The notes beneath the pieces were generated by a model, which was not told the origin of the DNA, did not search any database, and saw nothing but the letters and a program-made list of their open reading frames with translations. A DNA stretch of 37,486 nt from Verrucomicrobiota bacterium. Lineage in GTDB: Bacteria > Verrucomicrobiota > Verrucomicrobiia > Verrucomicrobiales > DEV007. A program made the translations under genes and the position numbers. Position 1 is the first letter of the stretch. Each line of letters opens with the position of its first letter. Where the stretch lies: NCBI GenBank assembly GCA_024277195.1, contig JAJRVS010000022.1, positions 1 to 37,486 on the forward strand. The letters run 5' to 3'. Positions 13,191 to 26,250 of the stretch are shown in pieces.

Positions 13191-16100
13191 ATGAAAAAAT
13201 CCAATCCTCGCCCCTTTTTCCCCATTGTTAAAATAGGTTTTGCCTTCAGTTTGTTATTTGCCTTTGCCTGCAACAGTCAAGCCGAGCTGAGTTTCAAAAA
13301 AGACGACCACATCGTTCTCATTGGTAATACCCTGCCCGACCGCTTTCAACACGTTGGATGGCTGGAAACGCTGCTGCAAAATGCGAACCCCGATCTGCAA
13401 CTCGTCTTCCGCAACCAGGCCGTCTCCGGTGACACCGTGAGCAAAAGACCTCGCAGTAAAGGTTTCAAACCTGTCGATGACTACCTCGCTCACAGCAAAG
13501 CCGACATCATCTTCGCTTTTTTTGGTTACAACGAATCTTTTGCTGGAGACAAAGGAATCGATCAGTTCAAAAAAGACCTCGTCAGCATGCTGGAAAAATA
13601 CCGTGAGCTGAAACCCAACGGCAAGTCTGCCCCCCGCATCGTTCTATTCAGCCCGATTGCCCATGAAAACCTCAATAGCCCCAACCTGCCCGATGGCAAA
13701 TCCAATAACGAGCGTTTGGCCAAATACACGGCAGCGATCAAAGAGGTAGCCGCCCAACAGAAAGCCGGTTTTGTTGATCTGTTTACCAGCTCACAAACTC
13801 TCTATGCTGCAGCAAGAAAACCCCTCACCATCAACGGCATTCACCTCACCGAAGAAGGCAACCGCCAACTCGCTGAAGTCATTGCCAAACAGCTCACTGG
13901 AAAAACACTGGCCGCCACCGACAAGCTCGAAGCCCTGCGCCAGGGAGTGCTCGACAAAAACTGGCACTGGTTCAACCGCTTCCGCGCCACCGACGGCAAC
14001 GATGTCTGGGGCAGTCGCTCAACCCTTAAATTCTACAACGACCAAAGCAACGGCACCGTCCTGATGCACGAGCTCACCATGCTCGACGTCATGACCGCCA
14101 ACCGTGACGTTCGTGTGCATGCCCTCTCCCGAGGCAGTGATATCGCCGTAGTGGACAGCAATGTCCCCAAACCGGTTAAAGTAATCTCGAATATCGGTGG
14201 AGGAAGTAAAAGCTCCAATGCGATGAAAGAAGGTACCCTGAATTACCTCAGCGGCGAAGAAGGCGTCGCCAAGCTCAAAGTGCCCAAAAATTTCAAAGTC
14301 AATCTGTTTGCCGATGAAAAAATGTTTCCCGAATTGGCAAACCCAGTGCAAATGCAAGTCGATGGCAAAGGCCGCCTGTGGGTCGCCGCTTGGAACACCT
14401 ACCCCAAATGGGAACCAATGAAAAAAATGGATGACAGCATCCTCATTCTTAGCGACGAAGACCACGACGGTGTTGCTGACAAAATAACCACCTTCGCCAA
14501 TGTCCACAACCCGCTAGGTTTTGAATTCTGGAATGGAGGGATCCTGGTGACCCGCCAACCCGACATCCTTTTCTTGAAAGACACCGACGGCGATGACGTC
14601 GCCGATGTTAAAATCCGCTACCTCAACGGCATTGGCTCAGCTGACACCCATCACACCGCCAACAACCTGGTCATGGGGCCTGACGGTGCCATCTACTGGC
14701 AAAGTGGTATTTTCATGCACAATAACATCGAGCATCCCTGGGGCCCCTCGCTCAGCACCGGATCCTCGGCGACTTATCGCTTTGATCCACGCCAGTACAC
14801 CATCAGTCACCACGCCACCAATAGCCCCAACCCGCATGGCACCTCCTTCGATTACTGGGGTTACCACTACGCCAATGACGGCACCGGTGGTCGTGCCTAC
14901 CAAGTTCGCCCCGAGGGCAAAGGATTCAAAATGTTCCCGCTCTTGGACAAAGAAGTGCGTCCGGTCGCTGCCGATGAAGTTGTTTCCAGCCAGAACTTTC
15001 CCGACGAAATGCAAGGCGACTTCCTGATCTGTAATACCATCGGATTCCTCGGCATCAAACAATACAAACTCAATCTGGACGGCGGAGTCGAACGCAGCCG
15101 CACCGAAGGCAAGGGAGACAAAAAGAAAACGGTGAAATGGACAAGCCAACTCGGCGAAGTCTGGGGCACTCCTTCCGGCAGCGAGTTGATCACTCACAGC
15201 ATTGATCCCAAAACCGGAGAGAAAAAAGAAACCTCCAATATCGGTTTCCTGATCAGTGAAGACAAAAACTTCCGCCCCACCGACGCCGTCTTCGGCGAAG
15301 ATGGAGCCCTTTACGTTTCTGACTGGCAAAATGTCATCATCGGACATATGCAGCACAATATCCGCGACCCCAATCGCGATCACAAACACGGCCGTATTTA
15401 CCGCGTCGTTAATCAAGACAAACCGCTGCAAAAGCCTGTCAAAATCGATGGAGCTTCCCTGCCCGAATTGATGACCAATCTTGAACATCCGGTTAACGGA
15501 GTCCGTCACCGCACCCGGGTTGAACTCAGCGAACGTCCCAGCAAGGATGTGATCGAGGCATGCCAACAATGGATGAAAAAGTTCGACCCGAAAAAGAAAG
15601 CAGACGCACATCACTTGCTTGAAGCTCTGTGGGTGCACCAGCAACACAACGTGCGTAATACCAAGCTTCTCGGACAAGTGCTGGTTTCACCCGAACCCCA
15701 TGCCCGTGTCGCAGCGAACACCGTGCAGCACTACTGGTACAACGTAGATCTCACCAACACCTCAGGAGAGAAATTCGAGACCCACAAAGAGAGCAAGCTG
15801 CCCAAAGGCATCATCTCCGACAGCGCTGATCTCACCGTGGTGCAGATCAATACCGTGGTGGAAAAAATGCGTTACGACGTAAAAGAGTTCACCGTGAAGT
15901 CGGGCAAAAAGATCAAACTGACCTTCACCAATCCTGACTTCATGCCGCACAACCTGATGATCACTCTACCCAAGAGTGCTGAGGAAGTCGCGTTGGCAGC
16001 AATGGCCATGGGCGCTGAAGGCTTCACCAAAGGCTTCCACCCCGATAGCCCTAAAATCCTCTGGGCAACCAAGATGCTCGATAATGGACAGGATGCCGTA

Positions 16101-16202
16101 TTGGAATTCACCGCCCCGGACAAACCTGGCGACTACGAATTTGTCTGCACCTTCCCTGGTCACTACATGCTGATGCGCGGCATCATGAGGGTGGTGAAGT
16201 GA
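13191..16202 (+). CDS. Secreted SGNH-like / PVC beta-propeller / azurin-like cupredoxin fusion protein
   Basis: The 1003 residues form several domains behind a signal peptide (cleavage near residue 31). Residues ~38-235 are an SGNH hydrolase fold, but block I reads GNT (45-47) in place of GDS and Asn215 replaces the Asp of DxxH (His218 kept), so esterase activity is doubtful. Residues ~360-760 match the PVC membrane-bound dehydrogenase-like propeller (TIGR02604 type), with VGPDG-like repeats and [14 protein letters not shown] short HEAT-like helical part follows. The last ~110 residues are a cupredoxin: His920, Cys986, His991 and Met995 in [10 protein letters not shown] are spaced as in azurin, giving a type 1 copper site. 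No CxxCH haem motif is present. A role in periplasmic redox or carbohydrate oxidation is inferred. A strong terminator follows. Confidence 0.88.
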
Positions 16203-17025: not shown

Positions 17026-17673
17026 TCACTCCACTCTTCCCTGCACCAATTTCCCGTCCTCAAGAAAAAACTCCTTATCGGCAATCAAGTCGGCCTCCCG
17101 CCGACTATGGGTGATATGCAATGCGGTGATCCCATGCTCCTTCACCACCGAACGGATCAACTCGACCATGCCTTCATGAGTCTCTTCATCAAGAGCGCTC
17201 AAAGGCTCATCGAGACAAATGATTTTTGGCCGCACCGCCAGAGCCCGCCCCAAAGCCACCCTTTGACGCTCACCTCCACTCAGACCAAAGGGCTTACGCT
17301 CTAAAATATCTTCGATCCCCAATTCTTCCGCCAGTTCCGGCACCCGTTGCTCAATTTCCTTTTTACCCCAACCCTGCACCTTCGGCCCGAAAGCCAACTG
17401 TTGGCGCACCGTCATCGTCGCAAACAAAGCGCCATCCTGGGGCACAAAACCAATGCCGCGCTCCCCCGCCCGCAACCGCGTCACATCCCTTCCCATCAAA
17501 GTAATCCGGCCACTCACCACTTCTTTCAAACCACAAATAGCCTCCAATATCGTCGTTTTGCCACAGCCGGTTTTTCCCATCAACACCCCATGCTCCCCCG
17601 TAGGCACTTCAAAGGAAATACCATCGATGCAAAAGTCCCCCGCTCTAACGGAAAGCTGTTCAACTGCGATCAT
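17026..17673 (-). CDS. ModC-like ABC transporter ATP-binding protein without TOBE domain
   Basis: This 215-residue ATPase powers the adjacent permease. Walker A is GKTGCGKTT (33-41), the Q-loop is FVPQDGALF, the signature is LSGGERQR, Walker B is IICLDEP, and the H-loop is ITHSRRE. Sequence character is that of molybdate/tungstate/sulfate/spermidine importers. It lacks the C-terminal TOBE (Mop-like) domain that binds molybdate in E. coli ModC, so any trans-inhibition by the anion would need another protein. The start is three bases after the permease stop. It is the last gene of the operon that begins at 24459, and it converges with the ThuA remnant. Confidence 0.9.
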   Translation of the reverse strand: MIAVEQLSVRAGDFCIDGISFEVPTGEHGVLMGKTGCGKTTILEAICGLKEVVSGRITLMGRDVTRLRAGERGIGFVPQDGALFATMTVRQQLAFGPKVQGWGKKEIEQRVPELAEELGIEDILERKPFGLSGGERQRVALGRALAVRPKIICLDEPLSALDEETHEGMVELIRSVVKEHGITALHITHSRREADLIADKEFFLEDGKLVQGRVE

Positions 17674-17676
17674 TTT

Positions 17677-18387
17677 TTATAATACAAATTTCTTCCGGCT
17701 CTCCCGACCCCACATTCTGACCGCAATCAATACCACCACCGCGATCGACACCATCATCAGTGATACAATCACCGCACCTTCCAAATTACCAATACTGATC
17801 TCCAGAAATACTGAAGAAGACAACACTTCGGTGCGCCCACGTATGGTTCCCGCAAAAACCAGAATCGGACCAAACTCCCCCATCGCCCGAGTCCAGGCCA
17901 AAGTGCCTGCCGTTGAAACCCCCCGCCAAGCTTCCGGCACCACCACTCGAATAAAAGCCTGCGCCCGGTTGCAGCCCAAAGTCAGCGCCACCTGCTCGGC
18001 ACGCGGACTGATTTGATCAAAGGTATTGCGCATCGTGCGAACCGCAAAAGCCGCCGCCACGGTGAACTGGGCAAGAATCACCGCAGGCACCTTGTAAGTA
18101 ATGCCTGCATCCATGCCCTCCGGCATGAAAGGACCAAAGATCTTGCCAAACATCTCTTCAAAGCTCGGTCCGTCTATTCCCAACCACTCCCATGGCGGCA
18201 TCTTATTGAACAAAATCAGTAAACTCAAACCCACCACCAAGGGCGGCAACACAATCGGAATATCCAGCACCGCATCAATCAGAGCCTTGCCACGGAAATC
18301 ATAACGCGACAGCAAATAACCAATCGGCAAAGCCACCATGACCGACAACAGCGCGGTCACCGTGCAGGTGAACAAAGTCAACTTCAC
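17677..18387 (-). CDS. ModB-like ABC transporter permease, main part after an in-frame amber codon
   Basis: These 236 residues are an oxyanion importer permease of the ModB/CysW type. Five membrane helices are visible, and the coupling-helix EAA signature occurs as EQVALTLGCNRAQAFIRVVVPEA in outline, with a typical LDIPIVLPPLVVG block. The family's first helix is absent but is encoded directly upstream in the same frame (18388-18573), separated only by TAG at 18388-18390. The next codon is GTG, which could restart translation, but no good ribosome binding site precedes it. So this is either a recently inactivated gene, a two-chain permease, or a sequencing error. The flanking binding-protein and ATPase genes are intact. 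Confidence 0.75.
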   Translation of the reverse strand: MKLTLFTCTVTALLSVMVALPIGYLLSRYDFRGKALIDAVLDIPIVLPPLVVGLSLLILFNKMPPWEWLGIDGPSFEEMFGKIFGPFMPEGMDAGITYKVPAVILAQFTVAAAFAVRTMRNTFDQISPRAEQVALTLGCNRAQAFIRVVVPEAWRGVSTAGTLAWTRAMGEFGPILVFAGTIRGRTEVLSSSVFLEISIGNLEGAVIVSLMMVSIAVVVLIAVRMWGRESRKKFVL

Positions 18388-18573
18388 CTAACTCTGAATA
18401 TACTCATCTGCTAGAATCGCTTTAAATTCCTCCCAGCCCACATTGCTCACCGAATAAAACACATCCGCCATCAGCATCCCGCCGATCAACAGCAGATACA
18501 TCACGGCAATGCCGATCATTGCCGCAAAAAACGGAACATCCGAGCGGACTTTAACTGGTGAGTGATCCGCCAC
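18388..18573 (-). CDS. N-terminal helix fragment of the ModB-like permease
   Basis: A 61-residue ORF with one membrane helix (PFFAAMIGIAVMYLLLIGG), ending in ILADEYIQS and an amber stop. It is exactly in frame with the following permease ORF. The combined length (about 298 codons) and six helices fit one complete ModB-type subunit, so this is most simply the 5' part of one interrupted gene. It starts three bases after the binding-protein stop, which keeps the operon spacing regular and suggests the break is recent. Confidence 0.65.
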   Translation of the reverse strand: MADHSPVKVRSDVPFFAAMIGIAVMYLLLIGGMLMADVFYSVSNVGWEEFKAILADEYIQS

Positions 18574-18576
18574 AGT

Positions 18577-20112
18577 TTATTGCTTTTTTTTGCCCTCTTC
18601 TTCTTTCCCCAGTTCCCAGCGAAAACCATGTTTCATGAATTTCTTCTTACCCTGAGCCGACACCGCTGCGGTGAAAAAGCGATCGAGCAAATAGCGGTGT
18701 TTTGAATTTTTAGCCACCGCATACGGTTGATGGGCAATCGCATTGGGACGATCAATACCCACAATTTCATAATCATCCACCGTCGATTGACTGGCCATGG
18801 CGTTGCTCTTATAAACAATCACCGCATCCAAGGAGCCCGTCTTAACCTGATTGACCAAAAAATCCCCGGTGGGCGAATCCATTTTGATATTGCCCGAATC
18901 CACCACCTTTTGATACAAACCCTCTTCTTCCAACAGATACTTGGTCAGGAAACCCAAGGCCGATTTCTGCGGATGGGCAAAACCCAAACGAATCCCTTCT
19001 TTTGATAAATCCGTCAGTTTGAGAATCCCTTTAGGATTGCCCTTTTCGGTAAGAATCACCATCTCATTAGCTGAAACCAAAGTGGATTCTAGAAAACGGT
19101 CTGCCACCATTTGCATAAACTTTACGTCGCAGGAAAAATAAGCGTCGGGTTTTTCTCCGGCTTTCATTTGCGAGACCAATACCCCACAACCATTGAACAC
19201 CGGCGTGATCGTCACCCCTTCACGTTTCTCAAAGGATTTGATAGTATCCTGAATCGCCGGACGCAACATCGCACCGCTGAACAATAAAATATCAGGCTTC
19301 AGCGCCCACTCGTCCCCATCAACCACGTCATATCCTTCTTTCTTGAATACCGGCAAACCCTTGTCTTTGGCGCTCAAATAACGACAGAACCTCAAAGCTT
19401 CCGTCGGTTGCTTGGAAGCCGTCAAAACCCCAATTGTGATATTTTTCCTCTCAACATCAAACTCCGGCAGATTGACAAAATCAATTTCATCATACTGGTG
19501 AGTCAACGCGTCCCAGCAAATCACCACATCCACCGTGCCCAGTTTCAAGGCATTCGCCAATTCGTTCACTGTCGGCAACAAAACCGTTGGTTTCACATCT
19601 TTCCAAATACCATGTTTACTAAGAACCTTTTTGGTGAACTTGCCCACCGACGCCGCATCCGGGTTGGCAATGCCTATTTTTAAATCTTTACGCGTCAAAT
19701 CCGCCAGTTTGCTCAATCCTTTGGGATTACCCTTGGGCACTCCGAAACCCGCGCGCATGAAAGCCACCGGCATGGTTTCTTCCAGCAATTTTTTACCCTT
19801 GGCGATATCCGTGTAACTCGAATCGGCTGCCAGGTAAATATCGCCCGGCGCGATCTCCAAACTGCTCAACAATGTTCCCGAACCGCCATATTGCAGTTGC
19901 ACTTTCACCCCGTATTCTTCTTCATATTTTTTTGCTACCTCAGCCACCGGAGTCTTGATACCCGCTGCGCAAAACATCACCAGGGCCTTAGTCTTGTCCT
20001 TACCACCTCCGCCGCCACAAGCCCCCAGTAAAAAAACTGACAATAAAACCGCCGCCGCCCTGGTGAAGGGCTGCACCAAATACAAAAAAGAATTCTTAAT
20101 TAAATACAACAT
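18577..20112 (-). CDS. Tandem ModA-like substrate-binding lipoprotein (two domains in one chain)
   Basis: The 511-residue protein has a lipoprotein signal ending LLGAC followed by a glycine run. Two complete type 2 periplasmic binding domains follow. Domain 1 (about 42-270) begins ALVMFCAAGIKTPV and contains LQYGGSGTLLSSLE; domain 2 (about 272-500) begins ILLFSGAMLRPAIQ and contains VFNGCGVLVSQMK. Each has the paired NPKG-L-L-DL and DAVI-type segments, so they look like an internal duplication. ModA-type proteins bind molybdate or tungstate, but the first ligand-serine position reads Gly-Ile or Gly-Ala here, so the ligand is uncertain. The ATG overlaps the MoeB-like stop as TGATG; a GTG one codon upstream is the alternative start. 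Confidence 0.88.
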   Translation of the reverse strand: MLYLIKNSFLYLVQPFTRAAAVLLSVFLLGACGGGGGKDKTKALVMFCAAGIKTPVAEVAKKYEEEYGVKVQLQYGGSGTLLSSLEIAPGDIYLAADSSYTDIAKGKKLLEETMPVAFMRAGFGVPKGNPKGLSKLADLTRKDLKIGIANPDAASVGKFTKKVLSKHGIWKDVKPTVLLPTVNELANALKLGTVDVVICWDALTHQYDEIDFVNLPEFDVERKNITIGVLTASKQPTEALRFCRYLSAKDKGLPVFKKEGYDVVDGDEWALKPDILLFSGAMLRPAIQDTIKSFEKREGVTITPVFNGCGVLVSQMKAGEKPDAYFSCDVKFMQMVADRFLESTLVSANEMVILTEKGNPKGILKLTDLSKEGIRLGFAHPQKSALGFLTKYLLEEEGLYQKVVDSGNIKMDSPTGDFLVNQVKTGSLDAVIVYKSNAMASQSTVDDYEIVGIDRPNAIAHQPYAVAKNSKHRYLLDRFFTAAVSAQGKKKFMKHGFRWELGKEEEGKKKQ

Positions 20113-20867
20113 CACAATTTTTTACAAATTTTACAATCAGGGTTTCGCACAATTTTCACCTTTTGCAGTTTCATCGCTAAAGTATCAAAATAAATCAAGC
20201 GGTTCAAGTTTACCCCCGACAAGCCCGCAATCAACTTAATCCCTTCCATCGCACCAATGTTGGCGATCAAAGCCGACACCGCACCGATCACCGGAAACCG
20301 ACGTTTCCAATGCTCCGGCACCTCCGGATACAAACAGGCCAGGCAAGCCGTCTCACCTGGCACAATGGGAATCACCTGCCCCTCCATATTGAACATCGCA
20401 CAATCAATCAACGGCTTCTGCTGCAACACACACTCCCGGTTCATCAAAAAACGTTCTTCAAATAAAGGAGCCGCATCAAAAACGATGTCCGCCCGCTCTA
20501 CCAAATCCGCGGCATTGCCCTCGGTGAAATTTTCCGCCACCGTTTCAATTTCAATATGGGGATTAAATTGACGCAGGGTCTCAGCCGCTGCATCCACCCG
20601 GTTTTTACCCAAATAATCATGCCTCATCAATATCTGACGATTCAAATCATCCGGACGTAAATGACCGCCATGCACCAAAATCAATTTTCCAATACCTGCC
20701 GCCGCCAGAGACAAGGCCAATGGCCCACCCAGACCTCCTATTCTAGAAACCAGCGCCGTGCTGTTTCGCAATTTCACCTGCCCTTGTTCTCCCAAGCCAG
20801 GCACATTCAATTGCCATTCATAAATCGCCCGATCACGATCCGATAATTCGTTCTCAATATCTTCCAT
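20112..20867 (-). CDS. MoeB/ThiF-type E1-like adenylyltransferase, divergent
   Basis: The 251-residue protein belongs to the ThiF/MoeB/HesA family, which adenylates the C-terminal glycine of a ubiquitin-like sulfur carrier; the MoaD-like gene is next to it. Visible are the Rossmann glycine-rich segment (RIGGLGG), DDLNRQILM with the conserved Arg, GKNRV, NPHIEIE, and a zinc site of CLAC plus CKIC near the C-terminus. It is unusual: the first Gly of GxGGxG is Arg, the acidic residue after the second strand is in a His-Gly-Gly segment, and the usual DCTDN reads DAAPLFEE. It lacks a rhodanese domain. A divergent subfamily is more likely than a damaged gene, because the rest is well conserved. Confidence 0.85.
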   Translation of the reverse strand: MEDIENELSDRDRAIYEWQLNVPGLGEQGQVKLRNSTALVSRIGGLGGPLALSLAAAGIGKLILVHGGHLRPDDLNRQILMRHDYLGKNRVDAAAETLRQFNPHIEIETVAENFTEGNAADLVERADIVFDAAPLFEERFLMNRECVLQQKPLIDCAMFNMEGQVIPIVPGETACLACLYPEVPEHWKRRFPVIGAVSALIANIGAMEGIKLIAGLSGVNLNRLIYFDTLAMKLQKVKIVRNPDCKICKKL

Positions 20868-20897
20868 TGTTCTCGAATGACTCAGGATTCCTAATTC

Positions 20898-21179
20898 TTA
20901 ACCTCCTGCGATCGGTGTCATCAGCATCAACACCTTCACTCCCTCCAGAGACAAATTTTCTTTATCCCCCGCCGCCTGTTCACCATCCAAGACCACCAGC
21001 AAAGTCGATCGAATACGCCCCTCCCCATCAAAAACCAGTTCACCAAATTTTTCACCATACACCTCCAGGCGTCCCTTTAACACATCCGCCACAGAATCCC
21101 CTTCAGCGACCTCAACCGCCTCCTCCGATGCTCCCACCACCGAGGCCAACTGGCCGGTGTAATCGATGGTTAAAGTCAT
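20898..21179 (-). CDS. MoaD/ThiS-family ubiquitin-like sulfur carrier protein
   Basis: This 93-residue protein ends in Gly-Gly (TPIAGG), the mark of beta-grasp sulfur carriers that are adenylated and thiocarboxylated. The N-terminus (MTLTIDYTGQLASVVG) and the central LLVVLDGE match MoaD, where it would donate sulfur to molybdopterin. Its stop lies 30 bases before the MoeB/ThiF-like gene and its start overlaps the LolD-like stop by four bases. No moaE, moaA, moaC or mogA are in the window, so the carrier could instead serve another pathway, such as thiamine- or cysteine-type sulfur transfer. Confidence 0.85.
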   Translation of the reverse strand: MTLTIDYTGQLASVVGASEEAVEVAEGDSVADVLKGRLEVYGEKFGELVFDGEGRIRSTLLVVLDGEQAAGDKENLSLEGVKVLMLMTPIAGG

Positions 21180-21901
21180 TCTCCCTGCCCCTCCTTTTTC
21201 TCACCTTGCTGATCTGAAGAAATCATTTCACCTCCATCCAAATGCATCGCCGATTTTGCCGCGGCCTTGGCCCGGTCATCATGGGTCACCATGATCACCG
21301 CTCCGCCGTCATCAGCAAAGTCCGCCAAATGTTGCAGTATGATTTCCGAATTTTCCGGGTCGAGATTTCCTGTCGGTTCATCAGCCAATACCAACTCTGG
21401 AGAATGTAATAATGCTCGGGCCAAGGCCACCCGTTGCTGTTCGCCGATACTCAATTTGGACGGCACATGATGCAGCCGGTGACCGATATTAAATTTCTCT
21501 AACAATTCGCGGGCTCGATCCCCGTTTGATTCACCGCCTGACGATCTGTTCGCCAGATCTCCTATCAATACATTATCCAACACATTGAGGTAGGGGATCA
21601 AATGAAACTGCTGGAAAACAAAACCCACGTGTTCGGCACGAAAAGCAGCCCGCCCCTCAGCTTTTAATTCATAAGGGTTTTTCCCCGCGATTTCGATCAC
21701 CCCCTCATCCGGAGATAACAAAGCTCCGGTCATCAATAACAAAGTAGACTTACCGCAGCCACTCGGCCCATGCAAAGCGACAAAATCTCCCGCACAAATC
21801 TCAAAAGAAACGTCATTGACCGCATGTACCTCCTCCTCGGTGGTCACAAACCTTTTATGCAAGCCTTCTGCTTTTACGGCTATTGGTTGATTATCAGTCA
21901 T
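21176..21901 (-). CDS. LolD/MacB-type ABC transporter ATP-binding protein
   Basis: The 241-residue ATPase has Walker A GPSGCGKST (45-53), a Q-loop in FVFQQFHLIPYLNVLDNV, signature LSIGEQQR (with Ile for the usual Gly), Walker B LVLADEPTGNLD and H-loop VTHDDR. These are typical of the LolD/MacB/FtsE group, which works with FtsX-fold permeases by mechanotransmission rather than transport through the membrane. The partner permease is the upstream gene, which it overlaps by eight bases. The tail is acidic and Gly/Glu-rich. It also overlaps the sulfur carrier gene, so the Lol-type module and the sulfur-carrier genes share one transcript. Confidence 0.93.
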   Translation of the reverse strand: MTDNQPIAVKAEGLHKRFVTTEEEVHAVNDVSFEICAGDFVALHGPSGCGKSTLLLMTGALLSPDEGVIEIAGKNPYELKAEGRAAFRAEHVGFVFQQFHLIPYLNVLDNVLIGDLANRSSGGESNGDRARELLEKFNIGHRLHHVPSKLSIGEQQRVALARALLHSPELVLADEPTGNLDPENSEIILQHLADFADDGGAVIMVTHDDRAKAAAKSAMHLDGGEMISSDQQGEKKEGQGE

Positions 21902-23174
21902 AGCGTAACACGTCTGCTGGATCTTTTTGGGCAGCCATCAATGAAGGCAACCAGGCGGACACCGCCGCCAGAAAGGGAGCCGCGAGCAAAAGCCATGCAC
22001 ACTCGCTCACGCTGATCACCTCACCCAAAGTGATGCCATGGAAAAAACGTTCCTTCAGCAAAGGATAAATCACGGCAAAAAACACCGCCCCCAGCGAAGC
22101 CCCCAACAAACCCGCCACCACCGCTCTGGAAAGAAAAGCTGTCAGAATGATTTTCGAACTCACCCCAATCGCTCGCAACACCCCGATCTCCGTCACCCGC
22201 TCACGCACATTCATAAACGCCAACATCGCAATCCAAGCCATCGCAAACAGCAGCACGATAGGCAGTAAAACGCCCGCAAACCTTTCTCGCTCCGCACTCG
22301 CCTGCTTGCGGTGCTGCTTAGCCGTGGCAATTTGTTTTTGCGCCGTTGCCTTGGCCTTGGTCCGGGATTCCGCACGAGCCAAAGCAGTGCTTCCGGTCTC
22401 GGTGATTTGAGTATTTGGCAAAATTTGCATCAACTCCGCCCGAATTTCTCCCAAGCGATCCAGCGTCGCACAGTTGCATTCGAGCGCTTGGATCGCATTG
22501 ATCAGTCCCTTTTTACCTAACAACTCCTGACACTCGGTTAGATTCATCCAAATCGTGATATCATCCTTACTGCCTCTTTCCTGATAAGCTTTGCTCAACT
22601 TGAAGGACTTGCCCTTGAACATCAACTCATCACCCAGCTTCAAGCCCAAACTACGATGCAGTTCATAACCGAGCACCAACTCACCCTTTTTCACCGGATC
22701 GATCAAAGGTGATTTAGGATCCCTATGCGCCAACGGCACTTCACCGCGCACTCCGATCAGAATCACATTACGTTTCTTTTCCGGCCACTCCAACTTCTGA
22801 GTCAGACTGGGAAGCAAATGATTGACCGTCACAATTTTTGAATTTGCCAGGATTGTCGCATACTCTTCAGGCATCGTCTTGGATGCATAACCCTGATCAT
22901 AAACTTCACTCATATCCTGATCCTTGGGGAAAATGTAGATATTAAAACCCAAGCCCTTCATCGTTTTGCGGATATCGTCCTCCAACTGCTTCATCTCCTT
23001 CTGGGTATCCGCTTCCATCTTGGCAATAAGCGCATCCGAGTTCAACTCGAAGGACCGCATCGCCGCCAAAGTTGCCAGCACACACACAATCGCCAGTGCC
23101 GCACCCAGCAAAGCTAGAAAAAAATTTGTCTTGCGGTGAAAAATTTCCCGCATCACCAATCGCCTCAAATTCAT
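21894..23174 (-). CDS. FtsX-like ABC transporter permease (MacB/LolE type)
   Basis: The 426-residue protein has the four-helix MacB layout. One helix lies near the N-terminus (FFLALLGAALAIVCVLATLAA, about 18-38). A periplasmic domain of some 250 residues follows, with a Lys/Glu-rich helical part after the first helix and an Ala/Lys/Arg-rich coiled segment just before helix two. Three helices then form the FtsX domain, with the conserved MNVRERVTEIGVLRAIG and a final PADVLRYD. It is paired with the LolD-like ATPase downstream and begins one base after the stop of the unrecognised upstream protein, so the three probably act together in the envelope. The exported or extracted molecule is unknown. 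Confidence 0.88.
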   Translation of the reverse strand: MNLRRLVMREIFHRKTNFFLALLGAALAIVCVLATLAAMRSFELNSDALIAKMEADTQKEMKQLEDDIRKTMKGLGFNIYIFPKDQDMSEVYDQGYASKTMPEEYATILANSKIVTVNHLLPSLTQKLEWPEKKRNVILIGVRGEVPLAHRDPKSPLIDPVKKGELVLGYELHRSLGLKLGDELMFKGKSFKLSKAYQERGSKDDITIWMNLTECQELLGKKGLINAIQALECNCATLDRLGEIRAELMQILPNTQITETGSTALARAESRTKAKATAQKQIATAKQHRKQASAERERFAGVLLPIVLLFAMAWIAMLAFMNVRERVTEIGVLRAIGVSSKIILTAFLSRAVVAGLLGASLGAVFFAVIYPLLKERFFHGITLGEVISVSECAWLLLAAPFLAAVSAWLPSLMAAQKDPADVLRYD

Positions 23175-23175
23175 A

Positions 23176-24459
23176 TCAGTCGGCGTTCTTTTTGATCATT
23201 ACCGTTCCCGCACCAATCACCACAATCACCAAACCAATGATCAATACCAAGGGCATCAACGGCATCCCTTGTTCTTGCGCTTCATCGGCATTTTGTTCTG
23301 GCGCCCCATCGCCCGTTCCGTCTTCACCCACTTGACCGGCAGCCTTCCCCTCATCCGCCTCCTCATTTACATGAGCCTGGTCAGGCACTTCCTTCGTCAC
23401 CACCGTCGCGCCCCCTTGCGGTGCCGCCGCATGACTGCCTTTCATCGAATGACTGCCCTTGTTTTGTGACATCAGCGCCGCCGTGCCCTCCAAGGGCGGC
23501 AGCATTTTATCAATAATCACCTGACTGCCCTCCATCGCCGCATCCCAGTCCATCGCCACCAACAAATCCATCCCAGGGTTCTGATCCTTCACCTCACAGG
23601 AACATGCCCCTGTCAGATAAGCCGAATGCTCGATGACATTATCGTAATTAAGCCCCAGCCCGATCAAAGGCTCCAAAATCCGTCCACGACCAAAAACCGG
23701 AAACGCCATTGGCTCTTTGGAATATTCACCCAAGTCATCCTCCAAGTTCAACAACATCTGCAAAAACACTTCCTCCTCCACATCAAGTCGAGAAATCCTC
23801 AATACGGAAAAACCGATTTTTAACGGCACGTCTGATTGCAAAATATTCGCTTCATCCCCAGGGCGCATCTCTTTCTGTTTCTCGGTGTCATTTTTCCCCA
23901 CAACTCCGTCGGGCAAAGTCAAAATTTTCGCAGCTTTGCCGGCATGTTCGATCAAAGCCTTTTCCGCCGCATCATCCTTTTTAGGGTCACCACTTTCCAC
24001 CAATAACCAAGTAGCTGACTCCCCAGTCAAAATACGCTTGACCAATTCTTTCCGCAGCGGTGATTGCACAATTTTGCTCGCATTCTCAATTGTCGCATCA
24101 CCACTCCAAATAGGCTTGGTCAAAAAACCACGCATTTTGCCCGGATAAAAAAGGTCGAAGCGAGCCACGCTACTGTTATTTTCGCCTTCGGCATCCACCT
24201 TGACCGTTATATTGGCAGGAAAGGCCTGATCCTGTGCCGCATCGCGCAAAGCTTTCAAAGCCGCCGCCTCCGCAGGTTTCAATCCTCCTTGAGCCGGCAC
24301 ACAAATCAACTCGTAAGGGTCCGCAGGCCAACGCTCCAACGCATATCGAAATACCGGAACCTGACAGGCCAGCAAAATCCCTCCGGCCGTTAAACTCAGA
24401 AATAAAACCAAAGTGAAAAGCCACCGGGGTGGGGTGATTGGGCGGGGGGATATCTTCAT
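23176..24459 (-). CDS. Unrecognised bitopic envelope protein, first gene of the sulfur-carrier/oxyanion operon
   Basis: The 427-residue protein has a hydrophobic helix at about 13-31, directly followed by a cysteine (LLAC, Cys32, a weak lipobox) and CQVPVFRYALERWPADPYE. A large periplasmic region follows, containing a CSC pair (GACSCEVKDQNPGMD). Then comes a low-complexity linker rich in Ser, His, Gly, Ala and acidic residues (about 330-395), and a C-terminal membrane helix (VLIIGLVIVVIGAGTVM) with a short basic end. I cannot assign a family. The tight spacing to the FtsX-like permease suggests a periplasmic partner of that transporter. The upstream gap (24460-24609) should hold the operon promoter; I see only a poor match there. 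Confidence 0.8.
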   Translation of the reverse strand: MKISPRPITPPRWLFTLVLFLSLTAGGILLACQVPVFRYALERWPADPYELICVPAQGGLKPAEAAALKALRDAAQDQAFPANITVKVDAEGENNSSVARFDLFYPGKMRGFLTKPIWSGDATIENASKIVQSPLRKELVKRILTGESATWLLVESGDPKKDDAAEKALIEHAGKAAKILTLPDGVVGKNDTEKQKEMRPGDEANILQSDVPLKIGFSVLRISRLDVEEEVFLQMLLNLEDDLGEYSKEPMAFPVFGRGRILEPLIGLGLNYDNVIEHSAYLTGACSCEVKDQNPGMDLLVAMDWDAAMEGSQVIIDKMLPPLEGTAALMSQNKGSHSMKGSHAAAPQGGATVVTKEVPDQAHVNEEADEGKAAGQVGEDGTGDGAPEQNADEAQEQGMPLMPLVLIIGLVIVVIGAGTVMIKKNAD

Positions 24460-24609: not shown

Positions 24610-26142
24610 TCACTTCGGGAAAATCGGGGTAAAATTCCACAGTTGATTCAATAATCCCTTGGGTTGAGCCACCGCATCCTGCAGTTGCCCCTTGTAAATT
24701 ACCCGGATCACATAACCCACATCCCGCGCAGGTTGCACCGCCCCCCCTTCCATACGAAGCGGCAAATCATACAAAAATTCCATCACCTCGGCTTGCTCGA
24801 TCGTCCAGTCTGGCAGAATCGAGATCCAATTCACATCCGGTGCCCCCGATTGAATCAAATGAACCCTCTCCGCATCCGCCAGATCAAAAAAGAAGACTTG
24901 GATCTCCACTTTGGAAGGATCTATTTTTGCGAGTTTTTCCTTCTTTGCCACCTTTTCATCCTCTTCACCATCTTCGCCCTCGCTTTTTTTACCGCCAAGT
25001 TTCGCCCCCCTGCGCGCAATCGGCAAAACCAGACGCAGTCGCCGCGTCTCCTTTTTCTCCCGCGCTGCTTCGCCCCCCTCCAAGTCAATCTGCAACGACA
25101 AATCCACTTCCCCAATCTTCAACAACGCTTGACTACTATTTTCCTGGCTTTCCCGCCTTTTGATCTCAGCCTCAATAAATTTCACATAACGCTTCACCCC
25201 GATGGCCGTCAACTTGGCAACCTTGGCCGCATCCAATTCACGCCCCAATTCAAGCTGGATCACCGGATAATGCGCCGCCTGCAGCGCCGGGCCGCGACCA
25301 AAACGAATGCCGGCATCCTTTGCACCCGCGCCTGCGACAATCTGCCCTTGGATCAGAGTCGCCAGCGCCAGATTCTCTGCATCAAACAAATTGCCTGCAT
25401 AAACCGTCTGTTCCCCTTTCGAAATCGAATTTCCCACATACACCGGCGCCCCCGCCGAAGCGAGAATTACTGAGCGCACCTCGTCTTTGGACAAATCCTT
25501 CGCCCCAACCACCACTCGCAACATCACCGAGCCTCCCACCCCACCGGAATGCCGCGCTTTCATCGCCACCGGTTGCCCCGGCAACGTCACTCCCCATGGC
25601 CCTGATGCCGTTCCCACCCGCACTTCCACATTTTCGATCCGCAAATGCTCACGCAACAGCTCGATCAACACATCCGCATTAGCCACCCCTTCTCCCGAAG
25701 CATTTTCGATCAGAATATGCCTTACCGAACTCGGTTGCATGTGACTGGTCGGTCTGAAAATCAAATCCATCACCCCGCGCAGATCAGCCACCGAGACAAT
25801 CGCCGTCCTTCCCTTGCCCTCAATCGGATACTGCAATTCGTAACGCAGCCCGTTGATTTTAAACTCCCGGCTGCCTAATTTCGCTTTAAGCACCACCGCA
25901 GAGCTCTGCAGCAAGACCTGCCCACTGCGCACTTCCGTTTTGCGAAAACCATACATCTTGGCCACGTTCTCCACCGTCACATAAGGCCGATAGTGCCTCA
26001 TCACCACCCCCCACTTCGCCGTTTGGTCTGCCGCCTGCGTCAGAACCGCTGCCCAACAGAAAACCAGCAGCCCTAAAAGGCCACTTTTGCGCAGGCCAAA
26101 ACAAGGCCTGGCACTCTTTCGGATATCATCAAATCGAATCAT
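24610..26142 (-). CDS. Exported protein resembling a degenerate N-acetylmuramoyl-L-alanine amidase (amidase_3)
   Basis: A 510-residue protein with a signal peptide (LLGLLVFCWAAVLTQAAD). An N-terminal part (RPYVTVENVAKMYGFRK and after) resembles the copper amine oxidase-like N-domain that precedes some amidases. The segment from about 150 to 340 follows the order of amidase_3 (the ETVYAGNLFDAENLALATLIQ region, then AGIRFGRG and YPVIQLELG), but the metal-binding DPGHGG is replaced by LIENASGEG. The zinc ligands thus seem lost, and catalysis is unlikely. The C-terminal 150 residues are of unknown type with a Lys/Glu-rich linker. I chose the ATG at 26140-26142; a GTG at 26181 gives a 523-residue form. 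It may bind the cell wall. Confidence 0.6.
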   Translation of the reverse strand: MIRFDDIRKSARPCFGLRKSGLLGLLVFCWAAVLTQAADQTAKWGVVMRHYRPYVTVENVAKMYGFRKTEVRSGQVLLQSSAVVLKAKLGSREFKINGLRYELQYPIEGKGRTAIVSVADLRGVMDLIFRPTSHMQPSSVRHILIENASGEGVANADVLIELLREHLRIENVEVRVGTASGPWGVTLPGQPVAMKARHSGGVGGSVMLRVVVGAKDLSKDEVRSVILASAGAPVYVGNSISKGEQTVYAGNLFDAENLALATLIQGQIVAGAGAKDAGIRFGRGPALQAAHYPVIQLELGRELDAAKVAKLTAIGVKRYVKFIEAEIKRRESQENSSQALLKIGEVDLSLQIDLEGGEAAREKKETRRLRLVLPIARRGAKLGGKKSEGEDGEEDEKVAKKEKLAKIDPSKVEIQVFFFDLADAERVHLIQSGAPDVNWISILPDWTIEQAEVMEFLYDLPLRMEGGAVQPARDVGYVIRVIYKGQLQDAVAQPKGLLNQLWNFTPIFPK

Positions 26143-26250
26143 CGAAGTCCATTCTACGCAGAACTTGCCTAGAACACACAATTAATGCAAGAAAATCCTA
26201 GACTAGCCCCTTGCTCCTTAGTAGCATTCCGCGTGAAAAACATCACCGAA

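Follow-up and report, generated by a model that had tools for sequence, protein, structure and literature searches.

NosDFY is thought to supply sulfur for the copper-sulfide CuZ centre of nitrous oxide reductase (PMC7660919). By analogy, NosDFY-NosL would be the nearest known system in mode of action to the locus described here: in both, a dedicated ABC transporter and an anchored factor (metal-binding in Nos) would mature an extracytoplasmic beta-propeller, a role that is proposed for the present locus. The two differ in that the ABC module here is of the LolC/MacB type, the anchored protein (BIT) is thioredoxin-like, ModABC and E1/ubiquitin-like protein (UBL) genes are added, and the putative clients are many and carry cysteine sites, whereas Nos has one His-liganded centre. 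In gene content the nearest system is the AOR-linked MoaD/MoeB cluster, which likewise holds a ubiquitin-like carrier and an E1-like gene; in contrast, AOR occurs in 0 of the 75 genomes of the host's family, the E1 active site is rewired, and the clients are secreted propellers.

Single components also have familiar relatives. The permease-ATPase pair shares its fold and ATPase family with the LolCDE/MacB type VII ABC transporters, but has a single permease with an invariant periplasmic CxC and scores below the Lol cut-offs. The ThiF-like protein has the fold, Arg73 and zinc CxxC/CxxC of canonical MoeB/ThiF E1 enzymes, whereas Asp130, Lys86, Arg14, Asp62 and Cys187 are replaced or lost. HesA of nif clusters, a ThiF/MoeB-family protein tied to molybdenum and sulfur supply for a metallocofactor (PMC6361004), is comparable in family and in the proposed link to metallocofactor supply, but the nitrogenase cofactor is cytoplasmic and no shared neighbours were found. 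No description of the cluster was found in searches of open-licence papers for combinations of its genes, and the portion of Iyer 2006 (PMC1779556) that lists MoaD/E1 neighbourhoods does not mention it; relative to open-licence papers and general knowledge, the cluster and its link to propellers appear to be undescribed.

Results

Organization of the locus

The window analysed is a whole contig of 37,486 nucleotides (C371) from a 5.49 Mb, 422-contig Verrucomicrobiota genome (also labelled G000). Eight genes occupy positions 17026-24459, all on the minus strand, in the order BIT-FtsX-LolD-UBL-ThiF-ModA-ModB-ModC. The tight same-strand run reported in a first-pass annotation of the sequence was confirmed: a 1 nt gap separates BIT from FtsX, FtsX and LolD overlap by 8 nt and LolD and UBL by 4 nt, the largest gap (30 nt) lies between UBL and ThiF, ThiF and ModA overlap by 4 nt, and gaps of 3 nt follow both ModA and ModB. 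Pfam and NCBIfam likewise upheld the gene families that had been assigned, leaving the bitopic head protein without a family. An Rfam search of the window gave no match to a Moco or tungsten riboswitch. Positions 24610-26181, immediately upstream of the operon and in the same orientation, encode a 523-aa protein with no Pfam family that shows 78% identity in a congener (L032). A 1003-aa protein at 13191-16202 has an N-terminus that is SGNH-like, a heme-binding region of the PVC type and, at its C-terminus, an azurin-like copper domain.

Conservation and co-occurrence

Conservation was examined in 75 genomes of the host's family and in 388 genomes of the phylum, with the ModA and ThiF cut-offs placed where the ranked scores showed visible gaps. 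In the family sample BIT was found in 42 genomes and tandem ModA in 44, with 42 genomes harboring both, none BIT only, two ModA only, and 31 neither (p = 5e-19). Within one genus of patchy distribution BIT and ModA occupy identical sets of genomes (13 of 34), so that their agreement does not reflect deep inheritance only. System-type ThiF (bits >240) is present in 45 of the 75 genomes, 40 of them with BIT, and is separate from canonical MoeZ (bits 115-160), which occurs in nearly all of the family genomes. UBL was detected in 35 genomes, all having system-type ThiF, and FtsX (profile A2) in 29, all with tandem ModA; FtsX is absent from 31/31 genomes lacking tandem ModA.

The gene order of the window recurs at five loci of the host family (L032, L037, L038, L044 and L048), and two Planctomycetota loci (L162 and L170) carry all eight genes as BIT-FtsX-LolD-ModA-ModB-ModC-UBL-ThiF, an order that is also seen, with insertions, in isolate CA13 (L140). 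In one genus BIT lies on a separate contig from the remainder, both parts being present (L043/L046 versus L071-L073). A subtype (e.g., L067-L070) without UBL and FtsX/LolD retains ThiF, ModABC, BIT and the client described below, which indicates that these retained components form the core. The eight genes are thus one conserved, co-inherited unit: the Lol-like, UBL/ThiF and Mod-like parts are kept together in different genera and phyla, and where they lie on different contigs they are still found in the same genome. The single system suggested in the first-pass annotation therefore holds, the neighbourhood comparison having found the modules adjacent in far more than one genome.

The same annotation had judged a standard Moco operon not to be the obvious reading. 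That candidate is ruled out, as MoaE sits on another contig (C241) and nearly every genome of the family has a canonical MoeZ apart from the system; given where MoaE lies, the genome may have a Moco pathway at another site.

BIT and the FtsX-LolD module

BIT (23176-24459, minus strand) is a bitopic extracytoplasmic protein with an N-terminal signal/anchor and a C-terminal membrane helix, and matches no Pfam or NCBIfam family. Its AlphaFold (AF2) model (pLDDT 81.7) places helices at residues 12-31 and 401-426, and between these two membrane helices lie two thioredoxin-like domains. The fold matches thioredoxin with Z 9.4 over 98 residues and the b-b' domains of the protein disulfide isomerase (PDI) ERp57 with a Foldseek value of 3e-4, the whole-chain TM-scores being low. 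A CxxC active site is lacking, and the only invariant cysteines in alignment A1 are 32, 286 and 288. Cys32 (codon at 24364-24366, minus strand) is the first residue past the N-terminal hydrophobic helix, is invariant in 42/42 sequences as well as in alignment A1, and stands in the context [AGS]-C-x-[VI]-P-V-F-R-[YF]-A-L-[ED]-R-W. The Cys286-Ser-Cys288 motif (23596-23604, minus strand), in the context G-x-C-S-C-x-V-K-x-x-N-P-G-x-D, is invariant in alignment A1, and a CxC is present in 127/127 distinct BIT sequences.

FtsX (21894-23174, minus strand) is a LolC/LolE/MacB-type ABC permease (Pfam PF02687, 3.5e-11); matches of its model and profile to MacB, LolC, LolE and the heme exporter HrtB confirm the LolC/LolE permease fold. 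It carries a periplasmic Cys233-Asn-Cys235 (22470-22478, minus strand), which the AF2 model places after the first long helix and before the second. Both cysteines are invariant in alignment A2, and the CxC occurs in 61/61 distinct FtsX sequences with a freely varying middle residue. The ABC ATPase LolD (21176-21901, minus strand; Pfam ABC_tran, 1.5e-31) has intact Walker A and signature motifs, and LolD is its best NCBIfam match. Neither protein reaches the curated NCBIfam equivalog cut-off, LolD scoring 189 vs 307.75 and FtsX 44.8 vs 362.45 for lolCE.

UBL and the ThiF-like protein

UBL (20898-21179, minus strand) is a ubiquitin-like protein of MoaD/SAMP1 type that remains below the curated family cut-offs (SAMP1, 34.5/60; moaD_arch, 26.2/49.5; Pfam ThiS, 17.8/22.5). 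Its C-terminus, Pro-Ile-Ala-Gly-Gly here, ends in a Gly-Gly that is invariant in alignment A4 and in all listed relatives. The E1/MoeB-like protein encoded at 20112-20867 (minus strand) matches Pfam ThiF (PF00899) at 6e-52, yet residue alignment reveals a rewired active site: in 43/43 system ThiF proteins MoeB Asp130 is replaced by Pro, Arg14 by Trp, Asp62 by His, Asn70 by Asp and Lys86 by Arg, and MoeB Cys187 is also replaced or lost. Arg73 is kept in 46/46 sequences and the zinc CxxC/CxxC cysteines in 44-45/46, and the non-system ThiF-family proteins aligned with them retain the canonical residues, including Asp130. Roles for Asp130, Lys86 and Arg73 are described in the literature, where the arginine finger Arg14 is reported to be non-essential (PMC12355090, PMC13139853), and mutation of Tcd2 Asp188, the counterpart of MoeB Asp130, gave an inactive enzyme (PMC13139853).

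With its adenylation residues replaced, ordinary adenylation by the system ThiF-like protein appears doubtful, and either canonical MoeZ charges UBL or the E1-like protein has another role. The sulfur-carrier pair proposed in the first-pass annotation is consequently doubtful, the carrier keeping its Gly-Gly while the E1-like partner has lost Asp130, Arg14, Lys86 and Asp62 and one subtype dispenses with UBL. Within the cluster of isolate CA13, modC is separated from UBL/ThiF by a gene of the TauE/SafE type and a ThiS-like/ThiF fusion (L140, 16275-17478).

The ModABC-like importer

The tandem ModA-like binding protein (18577-20115, minus strand) contains SBP_bac_11 twice and passes the TIGR01256 cut-off (115.8 vs 62.5 bits). 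Conserved cysteines are found at positions 49 (48/49), 310 (46/47 ungapped) and 329 (46/47). Escherichia coli ModA binds its ligand through Ser12, Ser39 and Tyr170; with the halves aligned by eye, the corresponding positions are Gly/Ser/Trp in the N-terminal half and Met or Val/Cys/Tyr in the C-terminal half, which would place Cys310 at the position of Ser39. The ModB-like permease gene (17677-18573, minus strand; Pfam BPD_transp_1, NCBIfam ModB) is interrupted in the assembly by an in-frame TAG (18388-18390, minus strand; YIQS*VKLTL) at a position that is a sense codon in all aligned relatives, including congeners at 92% and 88% identity, and the TAG may reflect either a genuine nonsense mutation or a fault in the assembly. 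The 215-aa ModC/WtpC-like ATPase (17026-17673, minus strand) matches Pfam ABC_tran at 4.4e-33, and its best NCBIfam match, WtpC, is below cut-off.

Putative client propellers

Large secreted PQQ-like beta-propeller proteins (Pfam PQQ_2, 9e-11 to 3e-29) adjoin BIT at many loci in several phyla. A C-x19-C-x-C or C-x17-C-x-C motif, with only these two spacings, is present in 88 of 94 clients, whose flanking domains are very diverse (LamG, malectin, methyltransferase-like); by sequence, the client propeller matches only generic propellers in the PDB. A profile of the client motif (A3), biased toward system-bearing genomes because these supplied the clients for its construction, detects 16 sites in the genome of the window, against one operon. 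It matches 45 of the 75 family genomes, 43 of which have tandem ModA, and among the 42 family genomes that are at least 90% complete, BIT and the motif are both present in 23 and both absent in 19, with no genome having one alone. In the phylum sample, BIT is present in 29 of the 30 genomes that have a client, and a single client genome is found among the 344 without BIT (p = 1e-31); 15 of the 44 BIT genomes gave no client match, and the profile may miss divergent clients. The PQQb propellers lack the motif and were excluded from the clients. In place of the one envelope metalloenzyme envisaged in the first-pass annotation, the putative clients are a family of secreted beta-propellers.

Several loci have features of their own. 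In one genus (L043, L046 and L054) BIT and a 1270-aa client are separated from the other system genes and have a dienelactone-hydrolase-like gene on one side and a DUF1501 gene on the other, and at L168 (1-12000) three large PQQ-like proteins stand in tandem before an FtsX-LolD-ModABC-ThiF cluster. The client at L044 (12069-14807) and similar secreted PQQ propellers include a degenerate Rossmann segment that is methyltransferase-like and odd for an extracytoplasmic protein. Near the CA13 cluster (L140, 6256-8985), a 909-aa protein has a hydrazine-synthase alpha middle domain (HZS_alpha, 3e-36).

Discussion

On balance, we lean toward the operon being a dedicated maturation or supply apparatus for secreted PQQ-like propellers bearing C-x19-C-x-C or C-x17-C-x-C, with a predicted thiol-bound cofactor (metal, metal-sulfur or sulfur). 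In such an apparatus, an anion resembling molybdate or tungstate, or else an oxyanion of sulfur, would enter through the ModA-like tandem protein and ModBC, and thiols might help to hold it; in the cytoplasm, the imported anion would be processed, or sulfur supplied, by the ThiF-like protein and UBL; and the FtsX-LolD module would move or offer the product outside, where it could be handed by thiol exchange from the CxC of FtsX to the CxC and N-terminal cysteine of BIT and on to the three cysteines of the client. A relay of a thiol-bound group is suggested mainly by the CxC common to the three extracytoplasmic parts. A third cysteine is found in BIT and the clients, and because both keep three cysteines and not two, the cargo that seems likeliest from the sequences is a metal or metal-sulfur group. 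Export by FtsX cannot be universal, since FtsX/LolD and UBL are missing in the subtype that keeps the core.

Sulfur delivery without a metal, in which ModA takes a sulfur oxyanion, UBL-ThiF carries sulfur, and FtsX and BIT pass sulfane sulfur to the client cysteines, is unlikely, although the invariant Gly-Gly of UBL and the TauE/SafE-type gene inside the CA13 cluster are in line with it, and MoaD/E1/JAB clusters with sulfate transporters have been described (PMC1779556). The E1-like protein, however, lacks the adenylation Asp, UBL is missing from one subtype, and ModA scores above the molybdate-family cut-off. A thiol-redox (disulfide) system also strikes us as unlikely. BIT would act like PDI or Mia40, oxidizing or isomerizing propeller cysteines, and the CxC would be a redox dithiol along FtsX, BIT and client. 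The resemblance of BIT to PDI b-b' and thioredoxin fits such a role, and a CxC can be redox active, as in the CPC of Mia40, but BIT has no CxxC, the conserved cysteines come in threes and not in pairs, and disulfide chemistry gives no account of the ModABC-like importer and E1-like protein, which are tied to BIT more strictly than FtsX is.

A chance juxtaposition of ordinary modules, two or three in number, that serve lipoprotein release and the uptake of molybdate for Moco is very improbable: every module has familiar relatives, but the order is conserved across genera, the genes are present across phyla and co-occur when split, FtsX is confined to genomes with tandem ModA, and canonical MoeZ is separate. 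An AOR-type tungsten-cofactor cluster, in which MoaD and MoeB adjoin the enzyme gene, is hardly credible and was rejected, for although MoaD, E1 and an oxyanion importer together resemble AOR clusters (PMC1779556), the E1 catalytic residues are replaced and the tungsten aldehyde oxidoreductase domain AFOR_C matched none of the 75 family genomes while control genomes were positive.

Within the favored maturation apparatus, a bolder version can be put forward only tentatively, and we consider it rather doubtful: the clients might form a new class of extracytoplasmic metal-sulfur propeller enzymes, possibly thiomolybdate- or thiotungstate-based, in Verrucomicrobiota, Planctomycetota and other phyla, whose cofactor would be assembled in the cytoplasm, with an imported oxyanion and sulfur borne by the carrier as its sources, before its export by the LolC-type ABC module and its relay through the thiols of CxC motifs.

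The system defines an E1-like subfamily whose active site is consistently altered, and a permease of the LolC type in which a thiol pair is conserved. To our knowledge, no cofactor is known for the secreted PQQ-like propellers that occur in large sets in Verrucomicrobiota and Planctomycetota, and the present findings link such propellers to a single apparatus and to a site of three cysteines. The chemistry of the propellers can thereby be tested in isolates, for example Gimesia or Planctomycetes bacterium CA13, and if the cargo is a metal-sulfur group, the apparatus would constitute a new extracytoplasmic cofactor pathway.
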